A stretch of 64,000 nucleotides of DNA from Natrialba hulunbeirensis JCM 10989 (lineage in GTDB: Archaea > Halobacteriota > Halobacteria > Halobacteriales > Natrialbaceae): the NCBI RefSeq assembly GCF_000337575.1, contig NZ_AOIM01000002.1:8533-72532 (forward strand). Reading direction: 5' to 3'. Numbering within the stretch: the stretch's first letter is position 1; every line of letters begins with the position of its first letter. Under the pieces are notes generated by a model, which did not search any database, was not told the origin of the DNA, and was given only the letters and a program-made list of their open reading frames with translations. Shown here piece by piece: positions 342 to 62,324 of this stretch. The position numbers and the translations under genes were made by a program.

Positions 342-366
342 GTGTATTTTCACAATACATAGAATC

Positions 367-2427: not shown

Positions 2428-2432
2428 AAACA

Positions 2433-3071: not shown

Positions 3072-3346
3072 TAATTGACATCTCATTTGGGACTTCCCCG
3101 GTTTCACAGTTTTTTCGAATCTTGTCTTGAGCTATACCCAGTTGCCACTGAGCGATTGATCTTAGAGATGTCGCTCCAAATACACCTGTATGTGTAGTAG
3201 ATGTGATTTTGAAAAGAGTGTAGGATCCGACCGCGCTATTTTCCCCTCAAAAATTCATACTGACTGGCCAATCCCCGCCTTCACTGGGTTAGGTTGAGCG
3301 AATAATCTCAACCACTTCAATATGTTATTTTGTATGGTATTACTGT

Positions 3347-3823: not shown

Positions 3824-3957
3824 GTTTTTCCATTGTCCATAGTGTCCTAAATGTTTTCTGCTTGGTTTCCTTCGTTTCTGAACCGGGTATTGATTACTTG
3901 AGGATGTCGACCTTTAAGTCTAAACGTCGGGGGTCAACTGTGATGCCCTGAAAGTGC

Positions 3958-4543
3958 TCACTGTCGAGGTGTTTCTCGGCTGATTGAACCGAAATACGTT
4001 AGATCTTTCAGTGAGTTGTTGCAGCGGTGTCGCAATCGCCCACTGGTACAGGCTGACCGCGACTCATGATACGCCTGGGAGCTCGCACTCCTCAACTGTG
4101 ACGTCCAAATCAACTTAACGACCTGGTCACTTCTCAAACGTCACGAGTTCGCTGATGACTGGCGGCAGCTCGCTGCGGGTGGCCTTGAGCAACCAGAGAC
4201 AGACGTGAACCCACCGACCGACGTTGACATAGTCGACCTCGCCAAGTCAGTCGATGTCGATCGCCGCACTCTCGAGTGGAACGGTGATGTTTGGGTGCTG
4301 GCCGATCCCTCGCTGCTCAACCAGGATACGAACGATATGTTTCGTCGAACCCTTCGCGTCGTCACTGATCGGTTGACCGAAGGTGGCACCCACTACCCGT
4401 ACGATCATCTTGAGAACAGCGGTCAGCGTGCCGAGTGGATCGAGCGCTGCCTCGAATCTGGGGAGATCGTCGATCCAAGGTCGATTCGTGCCGGCGGTCG
4501 GAAAGGCGTCACGGACGACCAACGAGGCCTTGATTCTTTCTAG
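3958..4543 (+). pseudogene. decayed ORF with internal stop, transposase-like start
   Basis: One frame stays coding-like from about 3958 to the stop at 4543 apart from an in-frame TGA at 4067-4069. Before the stop it reads LLQRCRNRPLVQADRDS and directly after it YAWELALLNCD. With a Trp codon in place of TGA this would resemble the DxxxWYxW region of haloarchaeal DDE transposases. The downstream part (from about 4205) contains DIVDLAKSVDVDRRTLEWNG and a Glu/Arg-rich end, which I do not recognise. A GTG at 4205 could start a 112-residue protein, but no promoter is evident. Most likely a fusion remnant. Confidence 0.35.
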
Positions 4544-5967: not shown

Positions 5968-6056
5968 CGATACACTACATCTAGTTTGGCAGAAACTCCC
6001 AAACACCACCCTTGTCACACAAACTTATTGTCCGGTATTTCAATACGCTATACGTT

Positions 6057-14265: not shown

Positions 14266-15591
14266 ATGAGCGTCCGGTTCCTACATACAGCAGATTTGCA
14301 TTTAGGAAGTCAACTTAAAACACAGCATCGGCAGGCGACCGGATCGATCGAGACACTCAATTCTGCTATTTACACTGCTGTCGAACGGCTGTTCGACACT
14401 GCGATTAACGAGGATATCGACTTCGTGGTCATCGTTGGCGACCTTTACGACGAAGATTCTCGGAGTGTCAAGGCTAATGCGTTCCTGAAAGAGCAGTTCG
14501 ATCGACTTGCGGATCAAGATATTCCAGTGTACGTCACCTACGGGAACCACGATCCAGTCGGCAGTGCAACGACGTATGTCGATCTGCCGGACAACGTCTA
14601 CGAGTTCGATCACGAGGACCCCGAGGAATTTCACTACCCTAGCGAGGAGTCACCAGAAGCTCGGATCTGGGGCCAGTCCTACCGTGATCGCCATGAAAAT
14701 CGGTCGATGTATCACCGGTTTACGCCAGCTGACGATCGAATCCCGAACATCGGTGTCCTCCATACAGGTCTGAACCCCGATGGCCGCCGGTACGTGCCAG
14801 TCTCCCGGAGCGACCTCGAGAGCAAGGACAATATCCACTACTGGGCGCTCGGACACATCCACGACCCACGAATCTACGAAAACGAACAGCCGATTGCCTA
14901 CTCGGGCGTCCCGCAGGGCCGCCAAATCACGGAGCCAGGACTCGGCGGCGGCTATCTCGTTGAACTCGATGCTGACGGCGACTACGAGATCGAGTTCGTC
15001 CCGACGAGTCCGGTCGTCTGGCGAACCGTCGATGTCGACGTGGGAAGCGACGACATCGCTTCGATCCCGGACATCGAGCGTCGGGTCGAACAGAGCCTCA
15101 AGGAGTTTTCAGCGCCGACCGATCTGTTCGATGGCACCACCGTAGCTGTTCGCGGCCCTGACTGGGATATCGACGGTTACGTCTGCCGATGGAAACTGAC
15201 CGGGAACGGCCCGGTTCACGAGACGCTATCGAACGACGACGAGGCAATCCACGAACTCACTCGACGGCTCAGGGATGGATTACCATCACGGCGGCCGTTC
15301 GTCTGGACTGAGGCCGTTCGAGACGAGACTGGACCTCCGATCCCAGCCATTGACGACCTCCGTGGCAGCGATCGGGTGATCAACGAGTACCTCGAGCTCG
15401 TCGACGAACTCGATGGAGAGAAGGCTCGCGACCAATACCGAGACGACGTCGGCATGGTTTGGGAGGCGGTGGCGGACCACGAAGACGGACGACCGGATGA
15501 ACTGTCACTCACAGACGATCGACTCGACGACCTCATCGAGCGGGCACAAGAGCGTGTGCTCGAGGAGTTAGCACGTCGGAGGGCGACATAA
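14266..15591 (+). CDS. Mre11/SbcD/YhaO-like metallophosphoesterase nuclease
   Basis: 441 residues. All calcineurin-type phosphoesterase motifs are present in order: LHTADLHLG (residues about 6-14), VGDLYDED (57), TYGNHDP (91), GVLHTGLN (162) and LGHIHDP (194). The capping region after residue 260 is acidic. This is a DNA-end nuclease of the Mre11/SbcD group, and the pairing with a Rad50-like ATPase starting one base after the stop supports that. The partner has a membrane segment, so the pair resembles Bacillus YhaO/YhaN more than Mre11/Rad50. The 130 bases upstream form its own promoter region. Confidence 0.85.
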   Translation: MSVRFLHTADLHLGSQLKTQHRQATGSIETLNSAIYTAVERLFDTAINEDIDFVVIVGDLYDEDSRSVKANAFLKEQFDRLADQDIPVYVTYGNHDPVGSATTYVDLPDNVYEFDHEDPEEFHYPSEESPEARIWGQSYRDRHENRSMYHRFTPADDRIPNIGVLHTGLNPDGRRYVPVSRSDLESKDNIHYWALGHIHDPRIYENEQPIAYSGVPQGRQITEPGLGGGYLVELDADGDYEIEFVPTSPVVWRTVDVDVGSDDIASIPDIERRVEQSLKEFSAPTDLFDGTTVAVRGPDWDIDGYVCRWKLTGNGPVHETLSNDDEAIHELTRRLRDGLPSRRPFVWTEAVRDETGPPIPAIDDLRGSDRVINEYLELVDELDGEKARDQYRDDVGMVWEAVADHEDGRPDELSLTDDRLDDLIERAQERVLEELARRRAT

Positions 15592-15592
15592 C

Positions 15593-18507: not shown

Positions 18508-19890
18508 CTAGACATGCCGCACAATGGCATCTAAATCGAACAAACGGACGTCATCACGCTCTGACACAGCCTCCTGGACAGACAGCGTTGCACCATTTCG
18601 TGTGAATAATGCGTATTTTTTCTCTTTCTCACCATTATCCGGAGTCCAGCGGATTTCAGCAGCATGATCCTCGAGTGAGGCAAGGGCTCCGTAGTCAAGC
18701 GGCGCATTGGTGAACTTGCACTCCCCCACGACCATCGTCCCATCTGTGGTAAATCCAACAACATCAACTTCATGCTCTTTGTACCACCAGCGGCCGATAT
18801 CGAGAAACGTTTGCTCTGGGTAGAGGTTTGGGAGGGCGTCCTGGCATAGTGTCTCGAACTCCGGACTAACGAAATTCGGAAGCTCTGGTTCAATAATCGC
18901 CTCGACTGCATCTTCACCTAAGCGTTCGTATCTGTCTTCTTTCCCGTAGACGAAGCGGAACCAGAAACGAAACAGGGGATCCAAGAGACGATAGCGTCCA
19001 CGGCGTGACTTTGCTTTCTCTTCAGTGATGGGGACCTCTCGTTCGATAAGCCGTAGCCGTTCTAACTTTTGGGTATACGTCGAGATCTGCTTCCCATCGA
19101 TACCGACTGCTTGGGCGATTTCGTTTGATGTCGTCTTCCCCGCCGCAATTGCGGTGAGGATCGCAAAGTACCGGTTTGGATTTGTCAGTTCGGTCCGGAG
19201 TACATACTCTGGCTCGTTGTGGAGATACCCCTTCTGGGAGAGTACTTCTTCAGCGAGGACTGTCCTGAGGTGCTGGTCGAGATCGACGCCGTCGAGATAG
19301 TATGGCACACCGCCGAAGATACCCCATGTGAAGATTTGCTCCTCGGGAGTGTAGTCGTCTGGAACAAACTCCTGTGCAGCAGCGAAGTTGAGGGGGCGGA
19401 GATCAATTTTTTCCGTGAATCGCCCATACAGAGGACTGTTCCCCAGAAGGGTCGCTTCTTCCATCATACTAATTGATGAACCGACCAGAATGAGTGTTCC
19501 TGAGGTGTGCTGGAGTCGCTGGTCCCACAACCGCTGGATGACCGATGGAAGACTTTCGTCGGCGTCGATAAGGTAGGGGAATTCGTCGAGAACTACGACT
19601 CCGTCTTGGTCACCGATGTATCCGAGCAGTGCTTCCCAGTCCTGTTTAATCTGTGTGATGCCGGGGAAGGTCTCAGATGCGACGTCAACGAACTCATCAA
19701 GTTGTATCTGGGAGGTGGTTTCTGTGGCCTGATAGACGACCGCATCATCCCGATCTGAGAGTGAGTGCTGGACAAGCTGGGTTTTCCCGAGGCGTCGCCG
19801 ACCGAAGATGACGACCATCTCGCCGTCATCGGACTCGTAGCACCCACGCAATCGGGAGAGTTCGTCCTCCCGGTCTACGAAGTGGCTCAT
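18508..19890 (-). CDS. archaeal ATPase with C-terminal DUF234 nuclease-like domain
   Basis: 460 residues. Starts MSHFVDREDELSRL, then Walker A IFGRRRLGKTQL (about residue 30) and Walker B VVVLDEFPYLID. Middle winged helix: TSNEIAQAVGIDGKQISTYT. C-terminal DUF234/PD-(D/E)XK-like domain: EHEVDVVGFTTDG and VVGECKFTNAPLDYGALASL, with Asp and ExK. Family members are STAND-like NTPases of archaea without settled function. A paralog with the same layout is at 49522-50937. It is divergent from the Fic gene, and a GGATAG-N16-CTATCC palindrome lies 51-78 bases upstream of its ATG. Confidence 0.75.
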   Translation of the reverse strand: MSHFVDREDELSRLRGCYESDDGEMVVIFGRRRLGKTQLVQHSLSDRDDAVVYQATETTSQIQLDEFVDVASETFPGITQIKQDWEALLGYIGDQDGVVVLDEFPYLIDADESLPSVIQRLWDQRLQHTSGTLILVGSSISMMEEATLLGNSPLYGRFTEKIDLRPLNFAAAQEFVPDDYTPEEQIFTWGIFGGVPYYLDGVDLDQHLRTVLAEEVLSQKGYLHNEPEYVLRTELTNPNRYFAILTAIAAGKTTSNEIAQAVGIDGKQISTYTQKLERLRLIEREVPITEEKAKSRRGRYRLLDPLFRFWFRFVYGKEDRYERLGEDAVEAIIEPELPNFVSPEFETLCQDALPNLYPEQTFLDIGRWWYKEHEVDVVGFTTDGTMVVGECKFTNAPLDYGALASLEDHAAEIRWTPDNGEKEKKYALFTRNGATLSVQEAVSERDDVRLFDLDAIVRHV

Positions 19891-24233: not shown

Positions 24234-24640
24234 CCCCACCACTTCCGCTGCTAGCGTGGTATGTTTTTGAGGACCGGTGAAACTTGAGCGGCGGGGGAGA
24301 CACACCACTACTTCCGCTGCTAGCGTGGTATGTTTTTGAGGACCGGTGAAACTTGAGCGGCGGGGGAGACACACCACTACTTCCGCTGTTAGCAACGAGT
24401 TGTTCGGGGGATACTAGCGGGGGAGACACACCACTACTTCCGCTGTTTGTGTTGCCCGGTCGAGAGAGCGGAAAGTCAATCGTTGCTGGTACATTTCTAG
24501 TTATTAGAGATAAGTTTAAGTAGCATCCAAAATAACCGAAACCGTACGCTGTTATCACCGGACTCAAATCATCCTCTCAAAGAGAGGTGATGTAGTTGTT
24601 TTCACTCCTAACAGCGGAAGTAGTGGTGTGGGTGGGCTAC
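24234..24640. other. replication origin with ORB-like repeats and AT-rich element
   Basis: The box CCACTACTTCCGCTG (first copy CCACCACTTCCGCTG) starts near 24237, 24306, 24375 and 24432, the latter three preceded by GGGGGAGACACA or close to it. The first two lie in exact 69-bp tandem units containing TAGCGTGGTATGTTTTTGAG. An opposite-facing box CAGCGGAAGTAGTGGTGTG is at 24612-24630. Between the facing arrays, about 24480-24600 is AT-rich (TTATTAGAGATAAGTTTAAG) and suits an unwinding element. The G-run beside each box and proximity to orc1 fit haloarchaeal origins. An ORF readable across the repeats on the minus strand is an artefact. Confidence 0.78.
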
Positions 24641-36397: not shown

Positions 36398-37363
36398 CTA
36401 GTCGTGAATTCCCATTTCGGCGATTTGCTCTTGATACCGATTTCGAATAGTGACCTCAGTTACCTGAGCAACATCAGCAACTTCCCGTTGGGTCTTTTTC
36501 TTATTGCAAAGGAGGGCAGCAGCATAGATGGCAGCTGCGGCATACCCTGTTGGTGACTTCCCCGATAACAGCCCTTTCTCGGCCGTCGTATCGATGATTT
36601 CGTTGGCCTTCGATTGTACTTCGTCTGGAAGTTCGAGTTCGGAACAGAAGCGAGGGACGTACTTTTTGGGGTCAACAGGCTGCATTTCAAGACTCAGTTC
36701 CTTCGAAATGTATCGATACGTGCGGCCGATCTCCATCCGGTCAACCCGTGAGACGGCGGCAATTTCATCGAGAGATCGTGGAATGCCTTCCATCCGACAA
36801 GCTGCATACAGCGTACTCGTGGCCACACCCTCGATTGAGCGTCCTCGGATGAGATCTTCATCGAGTGTACGTCGATAGAGGACGCTTGCGACTTCGCGAA
36901 CAGAGCGGGGAACGCCCAGGGCAGAAGCCATCCGGTCGGTCTCAGAGAGCGCAAACTGGAGGTTTCGCTCGCCAGCGTCCTTTGTTCGGATCCGCTCTTG
37001 CCATTTCCGCAGCCGATTCATCTGGCTGCGTTTCTCCGAGGAGAGAGACCGGCCGTAGGCGTCCTGGTTTTTCCAGTCGATCGTGGTGGTCAATCCCTTA
37101 TCGTGCATCGTCTGGGTCGTCGGCGCACCAACGCGTGATTTGCTGTCACGTTCGGCCGCGTTGAACGCCCGCCATTCTGGCCCTCGATCGATAGACTCCT
37201 CTTCCAAAATTAGTCCACAGTCCTCACAACTGATTTCACTCTCATCAGCACTCCTTGCGAGCGCTGTTGAATCACATTCAGGACAGCTTCGAACACCCTC
37301 TTGCTCAGTGGTTTCTTGCCCGGTTTCAGTATCACGCTCTTTCTGCTGGGGCAGGCGTTCCAT
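36398..37363 (-). CDS. tfb: transcription initiation factor B (TFB) paralog 2
   Basis: 321 residues from ATG 37363; a longer open reading to 37597 is an artefact of a frameshift in the upstream small gene. Zinc ribbon [20 protein letters not shown] then [11 protein letters not shown], followed by GPEWRAF and the conserved [16 protein letters not shown] segment of the B-reader region. Two cyclin repeats: [20 protein letters not shown] and [20 protein letters not shown], with a terminal HTH-like [18 protein letters not shown]. More canonical than TFB1. Expected to direct a subset of promoters on this replicon. Confidence 0.9.
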
Positions 37364-37597
37364 TACCCAGAATAATGTTCTCTGTCGGGTTAAGCGCTGG
37401 GTACAATACTTCCTTGTCAGCATTGTGGGCTGCTGTCCAGCCTTGATGGAAAAAGCAAGCTGAATGCTTGAATCAAAAGCGGCCCCACTTGGTTCGTGGA
37501 CGTACACCCGCTTGCCAGGGACTGGTGTCACCAGATCGTTATCGACAAGTTCGGTAACGAGCTTTCGGGCGGCTATGTCGCCAATATCCGCTGTCAT
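37332..37597 (-). pseudogene. small haloarchaeal protein broken by T-run frameshift
   Basis: Starts [20 protein letters not shown] and [20 protein letters not shown]. After SSIQLA the frame should continue [15 protein letters not shown], as in haloarchaeal relatives, but the T5 run at about 37449-37453 is one base short. Restoring one T gives a continuous frame that ends with TGA at 37334-37332, overlapping the TFB2 start by about 30 bases. Either a true mutation or a sequencing error in the homopolymer. Function unknown; about 88 residues if intact. Confidence 0.55.
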
Positions 37598-49521: not shown

Positions 49522-50937
49522 TTACTGGTCTGCTTTACTCTCAAGAACAGCAACGATATCGGATAGATCGAAGAGACGAAGATCATCACGCTCGTCTGCA
49601 GCTTCCTCAACCGAGCGTTTGAACCCAGAGCGGCTGAATAGGGCGAGTTCATACGTCGGCTCACCGCCTGTGGTGGGCGTCCAGTCGATGTGCTCCACGT
49701 CGTCTTCGAGGTCAGCGAGTACATCGTAACCGAGGGGAGTGCTGGTGAATTTCGCTTCGCCAGCGATCAGCGTTGACTCGTCAGTTGGTGCGACGACATC
49801 GACCTCTCGGCCCTTGTACCACCACTGGCTTGGCACCTGTGTGAGCTGGTAGTCTGCATAGAGCGCCGGCACCGCCTGGTGACAGAGTGATTCGAACGTT
49901 TCACTGACGAAGTCGGGCAATTCCGGTTCGATGAGATCCGCGTAGGCGTTCTCGCCGTAGAGTTCGTACTGTCCCCCGCGGCCATAGAGATAGCGAAAGT
50001 AAAACCGGAACACTGGATCCCGGATCTGGTATCGAGTCCGCTTGCTGCGTGCCGGGTCGGCGAGTGCTGGATGGTGTTTCTCGATGATCTGGAGGGTTTC
50101 CAGCCGGTCGAAGTAGTACGACGTGTTGGTGCTCTCGATGCCGGCTCCCTGGGCGATCTCGTTTCGACTGCGGTTCCCGCTGGCCATCGATTCCAGTACG
50201 GAGAAATACGTGTTCACCTCGTTGAGCTCCATCTGGAGGACGGTTTCGGGCTCGTCGTGGAGTGGGCCATCCGGGTCACACAACAGCCGCGTGATGTTCT
50301 CTCCGAGGCTCTGTGATGGATCGAGAGGGCTGAGATATCGGGGTGTGCCGCCGAAGACGCCATAGACGAACACTCGTTCTTCGGGATCGTACGTCGGCAC
50401 GAACTCTTGGATGGAACGAAACGGCAGCTGGGTGAGTTCGAGGCGGCCATTCGGTGTCTGGGATACCCGGCCGTAGAGTGGCGCACCGCCATCGAGGACG
50501 TGGGTATGAATCATGCCGATTGCAGAGCCTGTGAGTACGAGCGTCGCCTGACTCTCGTCGACAGCAGTATCCCACAGGTGTTGAATGACCGACGGAAGCC
50601 CCTCGTTCGATTCAATGAGGTACGGGAATTCGTCGATGACGATGATGGCGTCTCTGTCGGTGAGGTACGTTAAGAGCGGTTCCCATTCCTCTTTGACGGC
50701 TGTGATGTCTGGATAGGTCGTCGCTGCTGCCTCGACGAATCGCCTGAGCTGTGTCGTCGCTGTTCCTTGGACTGCCTGATAGTATACGGCATCGTCGCGG
50801 TCGGCAATCGATTGGCGGACGAGTTCGCTCTTGCCGATCTGGCGGCGCCCATAGATAATTGCGAGTTCTGCAGCGTCACTCTCATAGAGGGCCTGCAACC
50901 GATCGAGTTCATCGATACGATTGACGAACTGGTCCAT
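49522..50937 (-). CDS. archaeal ATPase with C-terminal DUF234 nuclease-like domain, paralog 2
   Basis: 471 residues, collinear with the protein at 18508-19890: MDQFVNRIDELDRLQALYES, Walker A IYGRRQIGKSEL, Walker B IIVIDEFPYLIES, middle winged helix SRNEIAQGAGIESTNTSYYF, C-terminal REVDVVAPTDEST and LIAGEAKFTSTPLGYDVLAD with Asp and ExK. Two 13-bp palindromes sit 50-77 bases upstream of its ATG, nearly the same place as the single palindrome of the paralog. Possible role in defence or element stability; unknown. Confidence 0.75.
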   Translation of the reverse strand: MDQFVNRIDELDRLQALYESDAAELAIIYGRRQIGKSELVRQSIADRDDAVYYQAVQGTATTQLRRFVEAAATTYPDITAVKEEWEPLLTYLTDRDAIIVIDEFPYLIESNEGLPSVIQHLWDTAVDESQATLVLTGSAIGMIHTHVLDGGAPLYGRVSQTPNGRLELTQLPFRSIQEFVPTYDPEERVFVYGVFGGTPRYLSPLDPSQSLGENITRLLCDPDGPLHDEPETVLQMELNEVNTYFSVLESMASGNRSRNEIAQGAGIESTNTSYYFDRLETLQIIEKHHPALADPARSKRTRYQIRDPVFRFYFRYLYGRGGQYELYGENAYADLIEPELPDFVSETFESLCHQAVPALYADYQLTQVPSQWWYKGREVDVVAPTDESTLIAGEAKFTSTPLGYDVLADLEDDVEHIDWTPTTGGEPTYELALFSRSGFKRSVEEAADERDDLRLFDLSDIVAVLESKADQ

Positions 50938-51664: not shown

Positions 51665-52006
51665 GTGCTGTGTCACAACGCGCTGCGACGAATCGAACTT
51701 GAAGTCCTCGCCACCATCGAACGTGGCGATACAATCTCGAAGCTCGCGACAAAGCTTGACCACAGCAAGAGTTACCTCTCCCGTGCTGTCGGAGATCTCG
51801 TCGAGAAGAGACTGGTCTACACGGGACGTGACGGCCGTCGGAAATGCGTTGTTCCCTCGGATTCCCGGGCAGTTGAAATATTTCAGGATCTCGTCCGCCA
51901 GCACTCTCACATCGACTTTCCCGAGTTGTTGACGGGCAAAGCTCTCGAGGTACTGTATTACCCGCAGAGGAAGTCAACAAAGAGGTTTGAGAAGAACTCA
52001 AGTTAA
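51665..52006 (+). CDS. winged-helix DNA-binding protein, probably truncated
   Basis: 113 residues from GTG 51665. HNALRRIELEVLATIERGDT, ISKLATKLDHSKSYLSRAVG, LVEKRLVYTGRDGRRKCVVP form a full winged helix. HSHIDFPELLTGKALEVLYY follows and then the frame turns into PQRKSTKRFEKNSS. Related haloarchaeal regulators go on for another 150-200 residues after ALEVLYY, so this copy is cut at its 3' end. It may still bind DNA. Divergent from the DUF6788 gene across copy C. Confidence 0.6.
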   Translation: MLCHNALRRIELEVLATIERGDTISKLATKLDHSKSYLSRAVGDLVEKRLVYTGRDGRRKCVVPSDSRAVEIFQDLVRQHSHIDFPELLTGKALEVLYYPQRKSTKRFEKNSS

Positions 52007-53229
52007 CTGCCGCGGAGCAACCGCTTCATGCGATTACGGACAGATCGCTCATCTACAAGTTGATCGCGAGTGTTCTCCAGTTCTTCCTCTCGCTGATCAA
52101 GGAGCGTACGCAGCTCGTCACGTTCTGCAGTGAGCATTTCGAGTTGCTCACGTTGCTCAGCGATGGCCCCCTCGAGTTCATCGACTCGTTGCTCGAGCAG
52201 TCGGTTTTTCTCCTCGAGGTAGGTCTGCTCAGGCCTCGAAGCATCGTTCTGGATATGGCCCTCGAACGGAGAGTCAACTCCAATTTCCGTCGTCTCTCCT
52301 GAGCCGACTGCTGACGGATCGTAGAACTCGTCCGTTGCACCGATAGCCCGTTCGATCGTTTTCTCACCATACGTCGACCCATCCGCATAGTGAACCTCGT
52401 CCCACTTTTCGCGGATCAATCCTGACTGTCGAAACAGATGGTCTATCCGTGTGCGATCCCCGCCCGTCCAGAACGCAAGCAAACAACACAGCGCCATATC
52501 GGCTTCCGACTGGCTGTCGTAGCCAGCTGTTGATCCTCGCCACAGTCGATCAAACTTCTCCCCGTTGCTCGCAGACCGTGCTTTCTCGAGGAGGTCCTCA
52601 TCCTCGAGTTCCAGTGATTGATCAAGAGTCCCTGTGTTCGGCGGATCGGCATCAGCAGCGTCAGCCCCGTCACTCACCTGGGATGCGATGAATTCCTCGT
52701 GAACCTCCTCGAGTGCCTCCTGGCGCTCGTTGATCGACGTCGGTGTTCCGTCGACGTGGTCTGCGGTCACCGTAAAGAAGCGAGCTTGATCGTACATCTC
52801 GATCGAGCCATGTCGGTTCCGACCATCGGGAAGATCCCCCTCGATGAGTACGTGATACCCCGTTCCCGACGGCGAGACCTCGGTGAACGAATCTAGCTGT
52901 TCGATGATTGACGGCGCCGGCTCGAGTGGCTCGCCTGTCTCAGGATCGCGGCAGTCATCCAGATCGACGCCGACCAGTGGATCCGTCGCCGTGAATACGA
53001 AACCGATCCCATCGGCTGCACCAGTAGCTGCGTACTCGAGTGCCTGTTCGAGAGTAGTCCACGTCCGATCATCTGTAGTCGAGGCAAAGCTCTCAGTCGC
53101 AGGATCCACTGGTACCTTTGTCGCCTTTCCATCGCGGTCCTCTGTTCGCCAGCAAATCCACTGTGTTCGCTCGGCGAGTGTGTCCGGTAATGCTTCGATA
53201 TCGATTATAGGTGCTGTCTGATCACTCAT
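52003..53229 (-). CDS. primase-polymerase-like protein (NrS-1/AEP type), no helicase domain
   Basis: 408 residues from ATG 53229. N-terminal archaeo-eukaryotic primase elements: DGIGFVFTATDPLVGVDLDD (metal-binding DxD), EVSPSGTGYHVLIEG (SxGTGxH) and EMYDQARFFTVTADH. A middle SNGEKFDRLWRGSTAGY then EADMALCCLLAFWTGGD ... LFRQSGL matches the helicase-binding domain of NrS-1-like polymerases. The C-terminus is a coiled coil. An SF3 helicase normally fused is absent. Likely primes or fills DNA in plasmid replication or after transfer. Confidence 0.75.
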   Translation of the reverse strand: MSDQTAPIIDIEALPDTLAERTQWICWRTEDRDGKATKVPVDPATESFASTTDDRTWTTLEQALEYAATGAADGIGFVFTATDPLVGVDLDDCRDPETGEPLEPAPSIIEQLDSFTEVSPSGTGYHVLIEGDLPDGRNRHGSIEMYDQARFFTVTADHVDGTPTSINERQEALEEVHEEFIASQVSDGADAADADPPNTGTLDQSLELEDEDLLEKARSASNGEKFDRLWRGSTAGYDSQSEADMALCCLLAFWTGGDRTRIDHLFRQSGLIREKWDEVHYADGSTYGEKTIERAIGATDEFYDPSAVGSGETTEIGVDSPFEGHIQNDASRPEQTYLEEKNRLLEQRVDELEGAIAEQREQLEMLTAERDELRTLLDQREEELENTRDQLVDERSVRNRMKRLLRGS

Positions 53230-53412
53230 GGTCGACCTCCATCGATGATGACTCTCCATCCCTGACGGAGTCGAAAAACTCGAGGCTCCGAACTGATGCT
53301 TTATTTCGAACCCCCTGACCGACGGGGTGACCTCCCTCTATACTAGTCGGTTTTGGCCTCGAGGTTACCCGGACATCCGCCGCAGTCTTGCGGTTTTTAT
53401 CTGGACACCCCT

Positions 53413-53500: not shown

Positions 53501-56500
53501 TTATTCGAGGAAGGTCCGACCATAGGCAGACAGCGTGATACCAGTATAGTGGCGCACACGCTTGCCGTCACGTGTCGGGCGGTACTCGTCGTACGAAACA
53601 TACTCGTTCAGCTTCCGGCCGAACCAGGATTTCGCGTACGCCTCTTGGCCGTGTGTGTCTGCCCACGCTTCGTAGGCGTTGTAGAGTTCGTCTTTTGCGA
53701 TCTCGGCATGTTCCTGTTCAACGAGACAGTCCTCGACAAACGTTCCGAAATCCACGTCTTGTGGTCTATCTGACGGTTTGCTTTCGGATAGGTTCTCTGA
53801 AGGGTCAGGAGTGGGTGGTCCACATTCAGATTCTGAGTGAAAAGTCGAGACGGACTCATTGGACTGCTCCTGTTCAGCGAAACTGAGAAAGGGGTCAGTG
53901 GCTAGCGAGTCCAGTTCTTCGACAAGACCATCAAGGGAGTGTAGCTGTCCATCACGATAGACCCGTAGTGCGTCGGTATCCCTGTCGAGCACAGCAATCA
54001 CATATGGCGCGAGAGGTTCATCCGATTTCGACGTGACTGCATCAGGGACGAATGGTTCACGGATCGCCACCCACTCTTGTTCGAACGCCGATCTACTCTC
54101 GTAGCGATGGCGTTTGATCGGCTCGTAGACAACGTACTCATCGGCAGTTCTGTCATAGCTGTACACGGCAGGAACATCACTTCGTGAGAGCGAGTCCAAC
54201 GACGAAACGGTCGCGAATTCAGTTCCCGTTCCGTCGCTTAGACGGTACTCTCCTTCTTGCCGAGTCCACACAGAGCGTCTCGAGTCACCAGTCGCTGGTC
54301 GAACTGCAGTCACGCCGTCCCGAGCGTTCGCACCGCCATTGAACGTGACGTGCGAGTCAGACGTGTATAATCGGACGTCGCCGGACTCGAGTTCGTTGAC
54401 TGGTGAAGAAAGGATATCCTCAAGACGAGCAGCAGCCTGCAGTTCGTCATCACTGTCTTCAGAGGTGGCAACGACGAACAGAGGGACGTGACCAGCATCT
54501 CGAGCCCGCTGGAAGTTTCGAAGGATCTTCACCGGTTTGTCGACCGTCGTTGACTCGACCTCAATATCGAAGATGTGCTCGCAGTCGGGATGAACCGCTC
54601 TTCCATCCGGTTTCTCGCTTCCATCCTGTGTGAAGACCGTGACATCGAAGCCCTGCCGAGAGAGTTCCCGCTCGACGACGAACAACAACTCATCGTGAAG
54701 ATCACTTCCCGAAGATCGGACATCACCCGTATCTGGTTTGGTCACCGCTTGGCCCTCGCCGGTCAATCGAACGACGATCTCGCCGTGTTCCTGATCGAGC
54801 GTTACCTCAAGCAATCGTGAACGGCCCCGTATTTCTCCAAGCTCTTCGATCGACGGTGGTGACGCATCGGCGGCCTCGAATTGTGTTTGAAGTACCTGAT
54901 CGACCGGCTGAACAGGAACCCATCCGTTCTCTTCACGAGTATCTTGTCGGAGTTGGATCGTCCGAACTGCGTTTGCGAGGGCAATATCGATATCCATAGA
55001 CGCTAATTCGAACGTCTCGCGAACGGTATCCGGAGTCCGACTCGTTGGAGGGGACTCAGAGACAGTACCGTACTCGGTCTCTGCTCGCTCGTGAATCCGC
55101 TCGAGTGCGTTCTGGAATGCCTGTTCCTCGCAGTCAGTGAGCGGCTCATCACTCTCGGGGTGTCCTGGCGGAATCGGTAGCGGAGCCAGACTGAACGGCT
55201 CTGGGCCAGTCTCGCCGAATGTTGGACTCGATAAGCGAACGATCCACTCCCCACGTGGAAGTGACCGGATCCGATTGGCGAACTCGACGGGGTCCATGTC
55301 TTCGTGGGCCATCACCTTCGCAATCTCATTGTCGACGGCGATCTTGCCGATAATCGGACTCCCCACGTCGTTCAGAACGTTCAGGTAGACTTCACGGCCA
55401 CCCTTGACATCGAGTTGCTCGGGGAACTGCAGTGAAAGACCAACTGAGAGCCGGAAGCTTCGCCCTTTCTCCAAGAGCGTGTTCATCACGTCAGAAACAG
55501 CCAGACTCGAGGCCTCGTCGATGAGCAGGTTGATCACGTAGTCGTCCGGCTTCTGTTGAATATCGTCACCACGCTCTCTCAGCGCGTTGTAGAGCTCCGT
55601 CAAAATCACACCCGTCATCGCCTTCGCCGAGTCATCTCGAAGTCCACTGAGGTCGAACAGGATTACCGTGCGATCGTCGAGGACGTCGCGGAAGTCGAAC
55701 TGTGGCTCAGTGTTATTGAACACTCGCCGGAGATGCTCGTCCTGGGAAATGTAGTCCAGACGGTTACTGACGCCACCCATTACGGTCGCAAATGTGTTCG
55801 GATCGAGCTGGAGTTGCCGGTCAATCCGCCGCTGTACCTGTGGATGACTCGAGTGTGGCGCAGCACCTTCCTCTGGCTCTGGTGGTCCGGCACGCCAGAG
55901 TTGATCGACAATGTACTCGAGTTGATCGTGAGCGAAGTAGTCGACACTCTCACGGTAGCGGCCGTTCTCACGGCCATGTTCGTCGTCGTAGAGCGTTTTG
56001 ATGAGATACTTGATGAGCGTTGGCGCGACGACTGCCCGCTCGTAGCGCTCTACACCCATCACCATCTTCAGAATTTCCTCGTAGTGATCGGCCTTGTTCT
56101 GGACCGCGTCGACGCGTCGAACCCCGTTCTCGAGCTGTCTCTCGATGTTGAAGAACGCGAATCCAGGCAGTACCTCGGGAATCGGGAAATGGACGACGTT
56201 CTCCTCGAGGTCGTCGACACCGAATCGACGAGCGTGGGCTCGCATGTAGTCCTCACAGAGGCCATCACCCTTTGCGTCGATCAGGATGATCGGGCCGTCA
56301 GTCTGCTCGTAGAGTGAGAGCTTGTCGTTGGTCAGCGATTTCGACTTCCCGCCGCCGGTCGTTGCTGCACGGACGTAGTGAGTCGGAAGCAACGACGGCG
56401 GGATACGGACTGGCTCCTCTTCCGGCTCGCCGTTCTCATCGATCGCATACCCGATTGTCATGCCCTCTCGGAACTCGTCCATGAGATCCGGATGCGGCCG

Positions 56501-57886
56501 TGGGAGCGGATTCCGAGAGCGTTGCTCGGAACGTGTCCCTCGGCTTCCTTCGACCGTCAGATCTTGGGACGATGGGACAACAGTGAGGTTCGCAAGTTCA
56601 TCAGCGTTCAACACGAGGTCTGGTCTACATTTCCCCCGACCAGTGGCCAGTTCTCCATCGAGCATGTTTTCGAGGACCGCTCGAGCACGTTTTCGCTTCG
56701 TTCGATTCAACACGCCCTTCGATCGGAGTCGGTGCCCCTCGAGTTCGTAGAACGGGCCATCCAAGGCGTTCAGCGATTGAGCGAGTTGATCAAGTTGGGT
56801 TTCGAGATCGTTGTTCGCCTTACCGGTCTCAGTAGGTGGAAGTGCGACTGCTCTAGCATTGACGGTGAAGGTTCGTTTTGAGTGTTTAGCTTCGATCCGG
56901 TCGATCCGGTTTTGGGCTTCAGTTCCGATATTCCGCTGTTGGTCCTCTGGGTCAATCTCGCCAATCTCGAACAACGGACCGATGTAGCGCTGCCCGAACG
57001 TATCTCGTCCGTCTCGAAGGTCTTCGATTCGCAACTTTGCATCGGCGTCCCACTCGGGTTTGCGTTGCCAGACTACCTGGAACGCAATCGGATACTCGAG
57101 TTCGGTGAGGTGATCGATCAACGTCGCGAGTGGGGGCTGCTCAGTATCGTACTCGGTTGGATCCGGATCCCGGTTCGCGAACGGTTTGATCGTCGTCATC
57201 CAGTCGCGTTTGCGCTCGGCCCGGCCGTGCCACTGGACACCGATTGGTTCGATTTCCTCGAGTGATGGTCGGGTGAAGGTGGTCGCGGACTCTGAAGTGG
57301 GCGACGCTCCTTCATTAAGCGCTGAATCCGCGTCTTTAGTAGACTCGTCGGAGGTGTACTCGAGGACCGATTCATCATCAAATTCAGCGTCGACAGCATC
57401 GGTCTCGGGGTCAGTGAACTCAGACCCGTCGCCGGTCGAACGACCACCGTCAGTTCTCTCGACTGCGTCTTGCTCGTGGTCTACCTGTTCATCAGTGTCC
57501 GGAGACTCCAGCAGCCTTCTATCCTCAGATTGCTCGTCATACTCGTCCTGCGTGTACTCAACTGGTTGGACGAGTTTTCGCTCGAGTTCCATCTCACACC
57601 GAGCGACATCGAACGTTTGCGGGTAGATCGTCTTGAGCTGTTTCCCGAGCGTCTCGAGATGGGCTGGTTGGTCAACACCGTAGTAGAACTCGACTGGCTC
57701 GTCTTCCCCTTCGCTGACCGCGAGGAATTCGAACGTCGGCGGAGTAGTATCAGCAAACGGATTTAGTCTGTCCGACAACCCCCGTACATTTGGGTTCGTT
57801 AGTTTGTGGAGGCTCTCGAGTGCGGCTGGAATCTCTGCGGTATGAAGTTCTTCAGAGGTTGGGGTCACTCGGATATATTCACTCAT
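53501..57886 (-). CDS. giant conjugative coupling ATPase with nuclease-like and primase-C-terminal-like domains
   Basis: 1461 residues from ATG 57886; GGAGGT 10 bases before supports this start over the ATG at 57904. Acidic linker about 110-220. The VirD4/TraD-like motor has Walker A RAATTGGGKSKSL (about residue 509) and Walker B NLLIDEASSLAVSD (789). Around 1110-1170 HIFDIEVESTTVDKPVKIL then RNFQRARDAGH resembles a PD-(D/E)XK or DNA-end-binding fold. The last 90 residues (FGTFVEDCLVEQEHAEIAKD, LYNAYEAWADTHG, FGRKLNEYV, YTGITLSAYG) look like the DNA-binding C-terminus of phage/plasmid primases. Couples DNA to the secretion channel. Confidence 0.75.
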   Translation of the reverse strand: MSEYIRVTPTSEELHTAEIPAALESLHKLTNPNVRGLSDRLNPFADTTPPTFEFLAVSEGEDEPVEFYYGVDQPAHLETLGKQLKTIYPQTFDVARCEMELERKLVQPVEYTQDEYDEQSEDRRLLESPDTDEQVDHEQDAVERTDGGRSTGDGSEFTDPETDAVDAEFDDESVLEYTSDESTKDADSALNEGASPTSESATTFTRPSLEEIEPIGVQWHGRAERKRDWMTTIKPFANRDPDPTEYDTEQPPLATLIDHLTELEYPIAFQVVWQRKPEWDADAKLRIEDLRDGRDTFGQRYIGPLFEIGEIDPEDQQRNIGTEAQNRIDRIEAKHSKRTFTVNARAVALPPTETGKANNDLETQLDQLAQSLNALDGPFYELEGHRLRSKGVLNRTKRKRARAVLENMLDGELATGRGKCRPDLVLNADELANLTVVPSSQDLTVEGSRGTRSEQRSRNPLPRPHPDLMDEFREGMTIGYAIDENGEPEEEPVRIPPSLLPTHYVRAATTGGGKSKSLTNDKLSLYEQTDGPIILIDAKGDGLCEDYMRAHARRFGVDDLEENVVHFPIPEVLPGFAFFNIERQLENGVRRVDAVQNKADHYEEILKMVMGVERYERAVVAPTLIKYLIKTLYDDEHGRENGRYRESVDYFAHDQLEYIVDQLWRAGPPEPEEGAAPHSSHPQVQRRIDRQLQLDPNTFATVMGGVSNRLDYISQDEHLRRVFNNTEPQFDFRDVLDDRTVILFDLSGLRDDSAKAMTGVILTELYNALRERGDDIQQKPDDYVINLLIDEASSLAVSDVMNTLLEKGRSFRLSVGLSLQFPEQLDVKGGREVYLNVLNDVGSPIIGKIAVDNEIAKVMAHEDMDPVEFANRIRSLPRGEWIVRLSSPTFGETGPEPFSLAPLPIPPGHPESDEPLTDCEEQAFQNALERIHERAETEYGTVSESPPTSRTPDTVRETFELASMDIDIALANAVRTIQLRQDTREENGWVPVQPVDQVLQTQFEAADASPPSIEELGEIRGRSRLLEVTLDQEHGEIVVRLTGEGQAVTKPDTGDVRSSGSDLHDELLFVVERELSRQGFDVTVFTQDGSEKPDGRAVHPDCEHIFDIEVESTTVDKPVKILRNFQRARDAGHVPLFVVATSEDSDDELQAAARLEDILSSPVNELESGDVRLYTSDSHVTFNGGANARDGVTAVRPATGDSRRSVWTRQEGEYRLSDGTGTEFATVSSLDSLSRSDVPAVYSYDRTADEYVVYEPIKRHRYESRSAFEQEWVAIREPFVPDAVTSKSDEPLAPYVIAVLDRDTDALRVYRDGQLHSLDGLVEELDSLATDPFLSFAEQEQSNESVSTFHSESECGPPTPDPSENLSESKPSDRPQDVDFGTFVEDCLVEQEHAEIAKDELYNAYEAWADTHGQEAYAKSWFGRKLNEYVSYDEYRPTRDGKRVRHYTGITLSAYGRTFLE

Positions 57887-60065
57887 CGGAGTGGTTACCT
57901 CCATCAGTCCACGTTAGCACCTCGTTGCCTGTCTCTCGCTGCTCTTCGGGGCCTGTCTCGTCTGGTCGCGTGTCCTCTTCGGGTTGTCGTCCAACTTCTT
58001 CAGAGACTCCGGGCAGCTCTGTTCGAGATTGCGCTTTGGCGTCGAAGTCGATCACGTCCGTCTCCTTCTCAAGTGCGTGGACCTCGATACCCCGCCAGTC
58101 ACCGTCGACACCGACGAGCGCTTCCGAATACCCGATGTCCTCACTTCCCGGGACAGCGTCCTGGACGAACCGCATCTGCGCCGAGTTCAGCCCGAACTCG
58201 TTGGCCCAGTGCTGGTCCATCCCATCGAGATGGTGGAATTGCTTGATCGCACACTGATCGAGGATCGCCTCGGACTCAGTGTGCTGGAAGAACTCATCGA
58301 CAGTCTGGGTTATCATCCGAATGGAGAGATCGTGATGACGGTGGTGACGGAACACGATCTCGAGGTACTCGAGACTCGCTGCATCCTGCATCAAGTATCG
58401 AGCCTCGTCAATGACGAACACGACTTCCTTATCCGTCTCTTTCGCTCGCTCGTAGACTAACGTGATCAACAGCTGCATGATGAGACTCGTGCTGCCCCCG
58501 AGACTGCCCTCCTGTTGGGCCAGGTCAAGGTAGATCACCTTCTCGTCGCGAAGGTCGAACTCGGTTGGTCGCCCAAGATTTTCGTAGCGACCGTCCGCTG
58601 CAAAGGATCGTAACTGGTCAATCAGCCACGTTGCATCCGACTCGATCTTTCGAGCTTCCTCGTCTGTCCGAACGACGAACCCCTCCGGATTGTTGACCAT
58701 CTCCTCGAGGATATCGAGGACATCTCGCATCGTCGGACTTTGGTTGTCATGTGTCGCGATGTCGTCTGTGATTCCCTTTCGAACGTACGCTTCTTCGATG
58801 GCCGTCTCGAGTGTCGTTCGTTTATCGCCGAGTTGGATGCCACGAAGGGCGAAGTAGTTCGAGAGGAAGCTCATCACACTGTCGAGCTTTTCTCGGTACG
58901 GGCTCGCGTCCTCACCCATCGCTCGCTGGATCCGTTCGGGAGTTGGCTTGATCTCGAGTGGGTTCAGTCCCATATCGCCACCGACCGTAATTCGCGTTCC
59001 ACCGAGGGCTTCGGCGACGCCAGCCCAGTTGTTCAGTGGCTCGAGGATGATCCCGATTCGATCCTCACTCTGTTCGATCGAGCGGATGAAGTTCTGTTTC
59101 GCGCCAAACGACTTTCCGGAGCCGGGATCACCGATGGTGAACATTGCGTACCCGTTTTCGCGAGCGAACGGATCGATCACGACGGGACTTTCGTTCTTCC
59201 AGTGGGTTCCAAACTCCACACCACCGTCCTCGAGAATCGTTGCGTTATGCGGTGACGCGAGTAACGCGCCAACGGCGCCACCGAGTGAGATTGCTTCGCG
59301 GCCAAACGGATTCGAACCGATCGGTGCCGCGGCCTGGAGCGCAAGATCCTGCTTACAGATCCCTGTCTTCGGTGAGAGGCCAGCGGGTTGCTCACGAAGC
59401 CGGCTCCGGATTGTTCGAACAGTCTCTCGAAGTTCGTCTCTCGTATCCGCTCGGACAGTGACGAACATCCCCTGATCGAACACACGGCTGCCGTTCTCGA
59501 CCGCCTTGTACGTCGACACCGCCTCGTTGGCCCGCTCCTGCAGGTACGCACCACGAACGCTCTGCTCGAGGTCAGCGTCAACCTGAAGATCGTCCGCGAC
59601 CCGCTGGAGTTCGTCACGAGCTTTCTGCTGATTCTTCGGTGTGATATGGACGGTGAGATCGAACTCGATGTCGGTCAGTTCGAACAGTTCGTTCAGATAG
59701 CCGTCTTTGGGATAGTCGGGATAGTCAGCAATGTACAGCGTGGACGTCCACTGCTCACCGACCTGCGCAGTTCGGGTTTCCCACGTGATCGCCGATGGAG
59801 CAACAGCGCTCTTGTGCCGTTCAGCAATATCTTCGAGGAGTGTTCCTTCGACATCACCGGCTTCGAGTGTCTCCTCATCCAGGAGGTCTGAGAGGTCGAC
59901 TTCCTCCTCGTCGTCGTTCGATCGTCCCCGATAGGCCTTCACGCCAACACCGAGGAGAACAGCAACCAGAACCAGCCCTGCAACGATGTGAGTCGGCTCA
60001 AGTGACGCGAGATACTGCTCGAGATCGGCGACAGAGACGTCGACAACGGTGATTGAACTACTCAT
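57879..60065 (-). CDS. VirB4-like conjugation ATPase
   Basis: 728 residues from ATG 60065, chosen because GGAGGG lies 6 bases before it and it overlaps the previous stop (ATGAGTAG). One N-terminal membrane span (HIVAGLVLVAVLLGVGVKAY), then a VirB4-type N-domain and motor with Walker A FTIGDPGSGKSFGAKQ (about 308) and Walker B VVFVIDEARYLMQD (548), with TQTVDEFF as a later conserved motif. Powers assembly or operation of a type IV secretion channel. The next gene overlaps its end by 8 bases. Confidence 0.85.
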   Translation of the reverse strand: MSSSITVVDVSVADLEQYLASLEPTHIVAGLVLVAVLLGVGVKAYRGRSNDDEEEVDLSDLLDEETLEAGDVEGTLLEDIAERHKSAVAPSAITWETRTAQVGEQWTSTLYIADYPDYPKDGYLNELFELTDIEFDLTVHITPKNQQKARDELQRVADDLQVDADLEQSVRGAYLQERANEAVSTYKAVENGSRVFDQGMFVTVRADTRDELRETVRTIRSRLREQPAGLSPKTGICKQDLALQAAAPIGSNPFGREAISLGGAVGALLASPHNATILEDGGVEFGTHWKNESPVVIDPFARENGYAMFTIGDPGSGKSFGAKQNFIRSIEQSEDRIGIILEPLNNWAGVAEALGGTRITVGGDMGLNPLEIKPTPERIQRAMGEDASPYREKLDSVMSFLSNYFALRGIQLGDKRTTLETAIEEAYVRKGITDDIATHDNQSPTMRDVLDILEEMVNNPEGFVVRTDEEARKIESDATWLIDQLRSFAADGRYENLGRPTEFDLRDEKVIYLDLAQQEGSLGGSTSLIMQLLITLVYERAKETDKEVVFVIDEARYLMQDAASLEYLEIVFRHHRHHDLSIRMITQTVDEFFQHTESEAILDQCAIKQFHHLDGMDQHWANEFGLNSAQMRFVQDAVPGSEDIGYSEALVGVDGDWRGIEVHALEKETDVIDFDAKAQSRTELPGVSEEVGRQPEEDTRPDETGPEEQRETGNEVLTWTDGGNHSDE

Positions 60066-61173
60066 CGTCATCCCTCCGTTGGTGACCGATAACAGGCTGT
60101 TCGCGAACGGCGTTGCTCGCGTCGTCGTAATCGTGCTCTTCGCCGTTCCAGAAATCCATCGCAAGGACAAACAACTCGACCGTACTCAGGCGACGAGCCG
60201 ACCATCCGGGTGCCTTCTGGACCAGTTCGGTCTGGACAGCCCGACAGCGACGGTCGAGTTTATCGAACATCTTGGCGCGAACTTCCGCATCGTTCAGATC
60301 CTCACGGCGGGTGACGAAGGGGTTGAACAGAAACCCAACGACTGGTAACGCAGTCAGTTTCTCAGCAGGTGACTGTTCGTCACGATATCGATTGTAGACC
60401 TCGAGTGGGTTGACCTGAACGCCGATGAAGTATCGAATCTGCTGAGCACCGTCGAGATCACGAGGACGTTGCTCGCGGTATTCTGCTAGTAATTCCTCAA
60501 AAATTGGGTTCTCAGAAACGTCTTCGTCCTCGAGTCGCTCATCGATCTGCGTGATCAGGTCCTCAACGGGGAACGACCGAGTCGTCGCATGGAACTTCAG
60601 GTTGTAATCGAGTTCTTTGTTCGCGAACTCGGCGGCGACGTCCTGAACATGGGCCCAGTCGCCGCTCATCGCGAAGTCCATATTCCCCGGGTCAATCTCG
60701 AGGAACGCCTCCATTGTCCCGTCGGTACGTTGAACGGTCCTTGCACCGGGCCACGCTCGCTTAATATTGGTTAGATCCTGCGTTCGCTCGTCCGGTGCGA
60801 AAGGTGTGTAGTTGACCAGTCCACCTTCGTTCTTCGTCGAATTTGAGTGATCGTGGCCGTGTTCGTCCTTTTCGGGGACACTGTATGTCACCCGAGGGCG
60901 TTTGCAGTAGTGGCGATAGACATCGATGAGCCACGTTGCAGCCGACAGATGCGACGGACTGGCATAGACGGAGGCCACACCGAGAACGACACCAACCAGT
61001 ACGAGCGGGAAAACAAGTGCGTCGATGCCGCTGAAGCCGCCAATGAGTAATCCCGCAATCGGGAATCCGAGGAGGACATAGACATCACCCTCGTCGACGT
61101 TGACGATCGGAACGCGATTCTCTTCACCCAGTTCGTCCATAATCCGTCGGGAAGCTGCTTCTCGGTCTGCCAT
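60058..61173 (-). CDS. PrgI-like membrane protein of archaeal T4SS
   Basis: 371 residues. Two spans near the N-terminus (VYVLLGFPIAGLLIGGFSGI, LVFPLVLVGVVLGVASVYAS) followed by a large soluble part (KRAWPGARTVQRTDGTMEAF, QQIRYFIGVQVNPLEVYNRY, LPVVGFLFNPFVTRREDLN). In bacteria PrgI-type proteins sit next to VirB4; here the soluble part may equal the VirB4 N-domain region split off. Overlaps VirB4 by 8 bases and follows the TrbL-like gene by 2. Confidence 0.65.
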   Translation of the reverse strand: MADREAASRRIMDELGEENRVPIVNVDEGDVYVLLGFPIAGLLIGGFSGIDALVFPLVLVGVVLGVASVYASPSHLSAATWLIDVYRHYCKRPRVTYSVPEKDEHGHDHSNSTKNEGGLVNYTPFAPDERTQDLTNIKRAWPGARTVQRTDGTMEAFLEIDPGNMDFAMSGDWAHVQDVAAEFANKELDYNLKFHATTRSFPVEDLITQIDERLEDEDVSENPIFEELLAEYREQRPRDLDGAQQIRYFIGVQVNPLEVYNRYRDEQSPAEKLTALPVVGFLFNPFVTRREDLNDAEVRAKMFDKLDRRCRAVQTELVQKAPGWSARRLSTVELFVLAMDFWNGEEHDYDDASNAVREQPVIGHQRRDDDE

Positions 61174-61175
61174 GG

Positions 61176-62324
61176 TTAGTAGTATCCAGGATCGTTCTCT
61201 GTACGTCGATACTGTGGAACCCCTCGCTGACCGTAGGCGTCCGTCACGACGTTATCGTGAGCTGTTCCACCGTTTCCACCTGAACTCGAGTGGTCGCTAC
61301 TCGAGTGACGAGTTGGGGCATGATGCCGGCTGTTAATCTGCTGGCCAGCGACTTGCCAGGCGGCTGCTTTCGGTCCCCAGCGAGCGGCCGTCGCAGCTGC
61401 AAGCGGCCCAGCCACTTTCGCAGCACCGATCGTCGCACCCACCGTGACCGCGCCTTTCGTGGCGCCTCCAATGGCCTTCGCCGTCAGCGGACTCGCATAA
61501 GCGAAGAGCTTCCAAATCAAGATGAGTGCGAATACTGGAAGCGATGCTCCGATGAGATAGCTCAGGAAGGAACTGTCCGGTGCAAGTGAGGATTCTGCCC
61601 CGGTACCAAAGAGAAGGTCATATCCACGGAAGAGGATCGCAACCGGAAGTGGCATAATCGCCAGTGGAACGAATTTGATGGCGATCTGCTTCCCGATACG
61701 AGAGACGACAGGAAGATACCCGTACGCAACTGCGATCGCAATCGGCATCGTGTACAAATAGATGTACAAGAGGATCTCTCGGATGAAAAACAGCGCCTGT
61801 AAGATCCACATCGCAATACCACCGATCGCGGCCATCAACAACGCCAGAGCGGGATTAGAGATGGAAACCTCAAGGAAAGATATCAAAGCCTCTCTGAGCG
61901 CATCGAAGTCGGGTACTAAAGCAATAGTAAAACCATTAACGAGGAATAAGATAAGAACCGCAATCCAGTACCAGGTCACGATCAAGAAAGCTCCGGTCCA
62001 CGCAGAACGCCGAGCCTTTCGAGCTCCATAGACGCCTCCAAAATCAAAAATGCGGATAGTATGATGCCCTTGGACGAATATCAGTAAGAGAAGGAGGGAA
62101 AGGAGCATAATCTCACCGGTGACAAGTGCATTATGGAGGCCTACCCAAGGGTCATTTGTTGGGGTTCCAAAGACGAAGTTCCCAGACGTTTCAGGTACTG
62201 GTGTTCCGAACACTGACTCAGTGAAATCGTGGTACCCCTCAACAACACCCTCCTGAAACCACTCAATTATCGTCTCAATAATATCTTCGAACCATCGGCG
62301 GCCGAATTCTAGGAGGGAACTCAT
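61176..62324 (-). CDS. TrbL/VirB6-like polytopic channel protein
   Basis: 382 residues. About seven spans, for example EIMLLSLLLLLIFVQGH, WTGAFLIVTWYWIAVLILFL, ALALLMAAIGGIAMWILQAL, IREILLYIYLYTMPIAIAVA, FLSYLIGASLPVFALILIWK. Then an Ala/Gly-rich stretch (GATKGAVTVGATIGAAKVAG) and a hydrophilic tail. Spacing of spans and neighbours match TrbL/VirB6 inner-membrane channel proteins. Overlaps the lipoprotein gene upstream by 4 bases. Confidence 0.75.
   Translation of the reverse strand: MSSLLEFGRRWFEDIIETIIEWFQEGVVEGYHDFTESVFGTPVPETSGNFVFGTPTNDPWVGLHNALVTGEIMLLSLLLLLIFVQGHHTIRIFDFGGVYGARKARRSAWTGAFLIVTWYWIAVLILFLVNGFTIALVPDFDALREALISFLEVSISNPALALLMAAIGGIAMWILQALFFIREILLYIYLYTMPIAIAVAYGYLPVVSRIGKQIAIKFVPLAIMPLPVAILFRGYDLLFGTGAESSLAPDSSFLSYLIGASLPVFALILIWKLFAYASPLTAKAIGGATKGAVTVGATIGAAKVAGPLAAATAARWGPKAAAWQVAGQQINSRHHAPTRHSSSDHSSSGGNGGTAHDNVVTDAYGQRGVPQYRRTENDPGYY

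Follow-up and report, generated by a model that had tools for sequence, protein, structure and literature searches.

Reviews and surveys published from 2011 to 2025 state that no relaxase can be recognised on archaeal conjugative plasmids, and they allow for relaxases of a kind still unknown (PMC3158045, PMC6563490, PMC9905601, PMC12857230). The portion of PMC4390865 that concerns the pSOG plasmids likewise reports conjugation without a recognised relaxase. In the pNOB8-like pM164, traG was needed for conjugation, with a deletion donor giving the plasmid to only 1 of 99 recipients, and it was also needed for the one-directional mobilisation of flanking chromosome resembling high frequency of recombination (Hfr) transfer (PMC9899855, in part); from this one-directional transfer, a defined start is likely. 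For bacteria, sections of PMC12857230 link the MOBC relaxases to PD-(D/E)XK enzymes, note a winged helix at the N-terminus of TraX and report that a covalent intermediate was not observed. CONJscan takes the family PF13814 (Replic_Relax) as MobC, and PF13814 accompanies a VirD4 protein in streptococcal integrative and mobilizable elements (PMC5357655). Here a 64,000-base stretch of Natrialba hulunbeirensis JCM 10989 (hereafter the window; it spans bases 8533-72532 on a contig of 97,467 bases, from a haloarchaeal assembly of 4.16 Mb, 48 contigs and 98.8% completeness) is compared with these systems through one gene for a long coupling ATPase.

The gene encodes a single polypeptide in which a VirD4-like coupling ATPase is followed first by a segment resembling a nuclease and then by a winged helix of primase type (Pox_D5), and this coupling ATPase-nuclease protein represents a widespread haloarchaeal family. 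With moderate confidence, drawn from sequence comparison, the protein is interpreted as a type IV coupling ATPase that serves a haloarchaeal conjugative element, probably carries its own DNA-processing nuclease and would cut the transfer origin in the manner of a MOBC relaxase. Residue numbers follow the 1467-amino-acid (aa) translation P0001 from an alternative upstream ATG (57904), and 6 is subtracted for the 1461-aa protein, whose start at the second ATG (57886) is preceded by a ribosome-binding site and whose frame overlaps the VirB4 stop. A plus-strand reading of 53501-57886 was rejected for its many stops. The features of the gene and its product are as follows.

53501..57886, minus strand: coupling-ATPase gene, 1461 aa, an open frame with GGAGGT before ATG 57886
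55130..56467, minus strand: VirD4/HerA-type motor, about residues 480-925, from weak DUF87, TraG-D_C and SXT_TraD matches and invariant motor residues, boundaries approximate
56342..56365, minus strand: Walker A-like ATTGGGKS, residues 514-521, an invariant motor motif
55514..55528, minus strand: Walker B LLIDE, residues 793-797, an invariant motor motif
54725..55009, minus strand: conserved linker ending in a putative winged-helix-like segment, about residues 966-1060, directly before the nuclease; conserved in 40 relatives, the winged helix suggested weakly by a helix/strand pattern and an LTxxGE segment
54335..54709, minus strand: PD-(D/E)XK-like nuclease domain, about residues 1066-1190, from tail alignments
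54605..54610, minus strand: PD of the active-site signature, P1099-D1100, 40/40, with D 24/24 in a diverse set
54554..54562, minus strand: E-x-E of the active-site signature, E1115 and E1117, 40/40 and 24/24
54527..54529, minus strand: K1126 on the following helix, a possible displaced lysine, 40/40 in the close set and K 13, Q 10, G 1 in the diverse set
53915..54322, minus strand: strand-rich conserved segment, about residues 1195-1330, from conservation in relatives
53579..53740, minus strand: Pox_D5/primase C-terminal winged helix, residues 1389-1442, PF03288 above cut-off

All 40 relatives keep the motor residues G517, G519, K520, D796 and E797 unchanged. Pfam motor matches are weak for the 1467-aa protein, and NCBIfam gave partial TraD-type and primase C-terminal matches; the relatives L095, L122 and L128 score above the Pfam cut-off for T4SS-DNA_transf and TrwB_AAD_bind. 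The strongly acidic protein has two defining features of a type IV coupling protein (T4CP), namely a Walker A/B motor of the FtsK/HerA/VirD4 class and a gene encoded together with VirB4 and other parts of a type IV secretion system (T4SS).

A preliminary sequence-only reading had likened the stretch HIFDIEVEST...KILRNFQ, which corresponds to residues 1110-1132, to a PD-(D/E)XK fold, and alignment bears out the presence of active-site-type residues. In a set of 40 tails, comprising groups A and C of the relatives described below and reaching down to 35-40% identity, the invariant positions are H1070, D1071, Q1093, P1099, D1100, E1115, E1117, T1120, P1124, K1126 and N1130, and the signature keeps the spacing PD-x14-ExE. 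In a more diverse set of tails, drawn from several families of motors, H, D, E, E and P are again present in 24/24; this set takes in smaller haloarchaeal T4CPs and also T4CPs from a family that lies outside the class Halobacteria (L094, L095, L097). With the domain profile, the nuclease is also picked up in more proteins of T4CP size from haloarchaea, in two short VirD4 proteins of haloarchaea (L090, L091) and in VirD4 proteins of that outside family (L094-L098). The elements of the domain run helix, strand, PD, ExE-bearing strand, helix and strand, the order of PD-(D/E)XK nucleases with E replacing the lysine; BamHI likewise has E in place of that lysine. The primase-type C-terminal domain proposed in the same reading was confirmed by the Pox_D5 match of the last ~80 residues (PF03288; 27.8 bits against a cut-off of 21.4, E 3.6e-6), and the domain was matched at E<=1 in 38 of the 40 relatives.

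The same kind of tail is present on archaeal plasmids with proven conjugation. The pattern Q...PD...ExES...N was found in all seven T4CP tails inspected, from pNOB8, pAH1, pARN3, pSOG1, pTC, pB12E5 and the 103-kb plasmid of Thermococcus nautili 33-3, which is taken to be pT33-3. Profile-profile alignments (hhalign), co-linear over ~120 columns and controlled by 60 column shuffles, connect the Sulfolobales/Thermococcus tails with the haloarchaeal tail (probability 70, E 4e-5, score 40.3; shuffle mean 12.4, standard deviation 2.0, maximum 19.4) and the group B tail with the haloarchaeal tail (37.1 against a shuffle maximum of 18.0), while the direct comparison of the Sulfolobales tail with the group B tail was not significant. 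A nuclease tail is not described for the pNOB8-type or pT33-3 coupling proteins in the relevant passages of PMC9899855, PMC4390865, PMC6563490 and PMC12857230. No earlier description of it was found in the open literature, though one may exist.

Relatives were detected by tblastn in 173 plasmid records, of which 43 match across 80% or more of the length. A match occurs in 133 of 194 haloarchaeal genomes; MOB-suite labels 172 of the 173 plasmids non-mobilizable. The architecture is the same in full-length relatives with 43-87% identity, which argues that the fusion is not due to chance. Group A (~1400-1540 aa) matches over the full length, group B (~1220-1320 aa) matches only to ~955 and has a different tail, and group C (~1000-1090 aa) matches from ~714 to 1467 behind a different N-terminal part. 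These architectures therefore present the tail as a module combined with different motors. The tails of groups B and D show their own D...ExE...D(Y/F)DK after a winged-helix-like stretch. Four scans of viral contigs returned no relatives, so this is not a common viral gene.

The G104 relative (L032) is split into two open reading frames (ORFs) at ~residue 1127, inside the nuclease domain, by a frameshift or a sequencing error. At L099:1584-3899, a 772-aa protein resembles the tail in its C-terminal part (TQPDQ...EPE) and has no coupling motor that could be recognised, and it adjoins a 656-aa protein with weak similarity. At L127:17387-19794, a group B coupling gene is followed by a transposase and then by DNA primase and primase-associated genes, whereas group A has the primase-type winged helix inside the coupling protein instead.

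The window contains no relaxase. Across the whole assembly there was no accepted Pfam match to MobA_MobL, Relaxase, TrwC, TraI_2, Rep_trans or Replic_Relax, the best Replic_Relax value (E 0.034) lying below the cut-off of a profile that scored only below its own cut-off in positive controls; Mob_Pre gave no match in a search run without a positive control. Replic_Relax was also absent from 97 haloarchaeal genomes, again without a positive control, and from three arbitrarily chosen bacterial plasmids. Within the limits of such profile searches, the expectation that no separate relaxase accompanies the protein is upheld both for the contig and for the assembly, which is 98.8% complete.

Searching with only the motor of L095 led to bacterial plasmids, and in these Replic_Relax genes did turn up. 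Among eight annotated bacterial relatives, six (Niallia, Bacillus subtilis, three Streptomyces and Kitasatospora) have Replic_Relax as the gene immediately after the related motor, and PF13814 was confirmed by Pfam in both of the proteins tested. All six bacterial sequences contain D...Ex(E/D) in the same order as the tail. Adjacent genes in bacteria and a fused gene in archaea are a classical sign of a shared pathway. PF13814 had no match in the tail, the 40 relatives or the archaeal T4CPs scanned. A winged-helix-like segment precedes the nuclease in both the haloarchaeal and the Sulfolobus tails, and the only part that stands out against MOBC is the winged-helix part of group B (27.6 against a maximum of 17.4 in 60 shuffles); the merged archaeal profile aligned 17 columns of the winged-helix part only, at 15.9 against a shuffle maximum of 14.8 (probability 0.2, not significant). 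Beyond what the sequence-only reading had seen, the trait is family-wide and cross-phylum, and MOBC is the relevant comparator.

The coupling gene lies in a conserved block from ~52003 to ~65,300, beyond the window end, that is common to Natribaculum, Natrialba, Natrarchaeobius and Natronoglomus contigs. The VirB4 and TrbL_3 genes lie upstream in the same direction, with a similar order in other plasmids. The remaining members within the window are listed here.

57879..60170, minus strand: VirB4-like ATPase gene, Pfam P-loop_TraG and CagE_TrbE_VirB above cut-off, overlapping the start of the coupling gene
60058..61173, minus strand: operon gene, 371 aa, conserved, no family
61176..62324, minus strand: TrbL_3/VirB6-like membrane protein, PF19590, 713 bits
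62321..63879, minus strand: two more operon genes, 279 and 240 aa, no confident family, the block also kept in relatives
52003..53259, minus strand: downstream gene, 418 aa, with an NrS-1-type primase-polymerase helix-bundle domain (PF22763), end of the conserved block

Within the stretches compared, alignment to the closest relatives stops near 52003, and an overlap search found no terminal overlap indicating a circular contig. Outside the block, the window holds an AddB/AddA-like pair at 6012-11599 on the same contig as the T4SS, formed by a PDDEXK_1 protein (906 aa) and then a UvrD helicase with PDDEXK_1 (956 aa), and a Mre11/Rad50-like pair at 14266-18472, formed by a metallophosphatase and then a 959-aa AAA_23/SMC-like protein. 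A TFIIB gene occupies 36398-37597; TFIIB genes also lie downstream of the T4CP in the relatives L124 and L125, and part of PMC6563490 notes such genes close to T4SS genes in other archaea. Two genes of similar length, each combining ATPase_2 and DUF234, lie on the same strand at 18508-19890 and 49522-50937. A tandem repeat with a 69-bp unit (2.3 copies, 97% matches) occupies 24236-24393, and positions 1-4000 have a G+C content of 45% against ~55% for most of the window, which likely reflects a different origin.

These results suggest a route of DNA transfer for the reading of the protein as a coupling ATPase with its own origin-cutting nuclease. The ATPase, with the adjacent VirB4 and VirB6/TrbL-like proteins, would pump DNA out of the donor. 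The tail, comprising the winged-helix-like segment, the PD-(D/E)xE nuclease and the primase-type winged helix, would bind the DNA of the element at its transfer origin and cut it, most likely by a metal-dependent nick that passes through no covalent link to a tyrosine, in line with what has been proposed for MOBC relaxases. The cut end could then be loaded straight into the motor and handed to the pore, so that the tail would stand in for the missing relaxase. We infer catalytic activity, origin specificity and a nick in preference to a double-strand cut from the sequence. The earlier suggestion that DNA processing and coupling are joined in one protein thus gains from the fusion and adjacency pattern with bacterial MOBC genes and from the same tail on conjugative archaeal plasmids, while activity, fold and origin cleavage stay at the level of prediction.

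Several observations weigh against this explanation. The PD-(D/E)XK lysine is replaced by E, and K1126 varies in distant relatives. AlphaFold, given an alignment of five close sequences (the window and four relatives), returned predicted local distance difference test (pLDDT) scores of 34 and 41 and no fold support, and a PDB profile search of the nuclease part found no match. The coupling protein has no transmembrane segment (top 19-residue hydropathy 1.09, none above 1.6); an N-terminal anchor is described for most, not all, T4CPs in part of PMC7431656. No transfer origin was identified among the repeats, and the blocks conserved with relatives, that were looked at. The Rhodococcus and Aneurinibacillus plasmids, two of the eight bacterial relatives, have no adjacent Replic_Relax gene. 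The nuclease core scored at shuffle level against the six Replic_Relax proteins (hhalign), so homology to MOBC is not significant, and the tail is therefore said to work like a MOBC relaxase next to the motor, not to be one.

The main rival, which we consider unlikely, is an end-processing role like that in HerA-NurA or TdtA-NurA: an active nuclease that is no origin nickase would trim, resect or sever the DNA at the motor, in the way of NurA acting with HerA or of the nuclease domains in viral packaging motors, and linear double-stranded or resected DNA would be pumped. HerA-NurA has been proposed to make single-stranded DNA for archaeal Ced/Ted import (PMC9905601), in Thermus, efficient DNA donation by the HerA-like TdtA depends on a nuclease resembling NurA and involves no relaxase (PMC5365140), double-stranded transfer has been suggested for archaeal plasmids in part of PMC6563490, and the AddA/AddB-like and Mre11/Rad50-like genes lie on the same contig. 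However, winged-helix-type DNA-binding domains flank the nuclease, as expected of a site-specific enzyme, the bacterial neighbours of the motor are relaxase-family genes, and the one-directional transfer of an integrated pNOB8-like element implies a defined start (PMC9899855, in part). A still less probable alternative is that the tail keeps the fold and does not cut, acting as a substrate receptor or regulator that binds DNA or an undiscovered relaxase. The canonical lysine is indeed missing, many PD-(D/E)XK-like domains are inactive, and C-terminal extensions of bacterial T4CPs recruit substrates, but D, E, E and H are strictly kept across very divergent sequences and several families of motors, which fits catalysis and not mere folding.

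A machine devoted to other export of DNA or protein (vesicle loading, exclusion or antagonism) would account for the MOB-suite labels on 172 of 173 plasmids, and no demonstration of haloarchaeal transfer by the system described here was found; some haloarchaeal plasmids, pR1SE for example, travel in vesicles and encode an ATPase of the VirB4 type (PMC10818511). This appears very improbable, given the adjoining VirB4 and TrbL/VirB6 genes and the same tail on plasmids with proven conjugation. That an ordinary long VirD4 protein resembles a nuclease by chance is hardly credible: the nuclease part has no match in Pfam, PADLOC or PDB, yet its signature is invariant in 40 and 24 sequences and shuffle-controlled homology links it to other archaeal T4CP tails. 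PADLOC gave stray hits only, none for the nuclease part, and so lends no support to a defence role.

Extended across archaea, to Halobacteria, another family of the same phylum, Sulfolobales and Thermococcales, the reading of the coupling ATPase as its own relaxase becomes more tentative: a VirD4-borne PD-(D/E)xE nuclease might cut the origin and feed the motor throughout. The tail is a good candidate for the enzyme, never identified, that starts archaeal mating by DNA cutting. If this is true, it would explain why archaeal conjugative elements have yielded no relaxase. A conserved nuclease in a protein already essential for archaeal plasmid transfer offers a residue-level target, making the start of archaeal conjugation testable by point mutation, and it would enable typing tools to identify conjugative plasmids of archaea, which at present MOB-suite almost always labels non-mobilizable.

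Among known systems, the pNOB8-type Sulfolobus and the Thermococcus pT33-3 coupling proteins share with the haloarchaeal one the succession of VirD4/HerA-like motor, winged-helix-like segment and tail bearing PD...ExE, and their plasmids are also without a recognised relaxase; haloarchaeal group A differs from the Sulfolobus proteins in being ~400 aa longer, with a large N-terminal region, an extra strand-rich segment and the Pox_D5 winged helix. The last ~80 residues are common to the coupling protein and the C-terminal domain of phage and plasmid primases (Pox_D5, P4 alpha type), but the coupling protein contains neither primase nor D5 helicase, the Pox_D5 domain having been borrowed by a coupling ATPase. 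HerA-NurA and Thermus TdtA-NurA likewise combine a HerA/VirD4-class pump with a nuclease and no relaxase (PMC9905601, PMC5365140), although NurA is a separate protein of RNase H-like fold (PMC9905601) and the putative nuclease of the tail lies in cis and is of PD-(D/E)XK-like type. MOBC relaxases (TraX of pAD1, MobC of CloDF13) are PD-(D/E)XK-related and paired with a VirD4 coupling protein, as set out in PMC5357655 and PMC12857230, each in part; they resemble the predicted nuclease tail in this and differ in being separate proteins, whereas the archaeal tail is fused to its motor.

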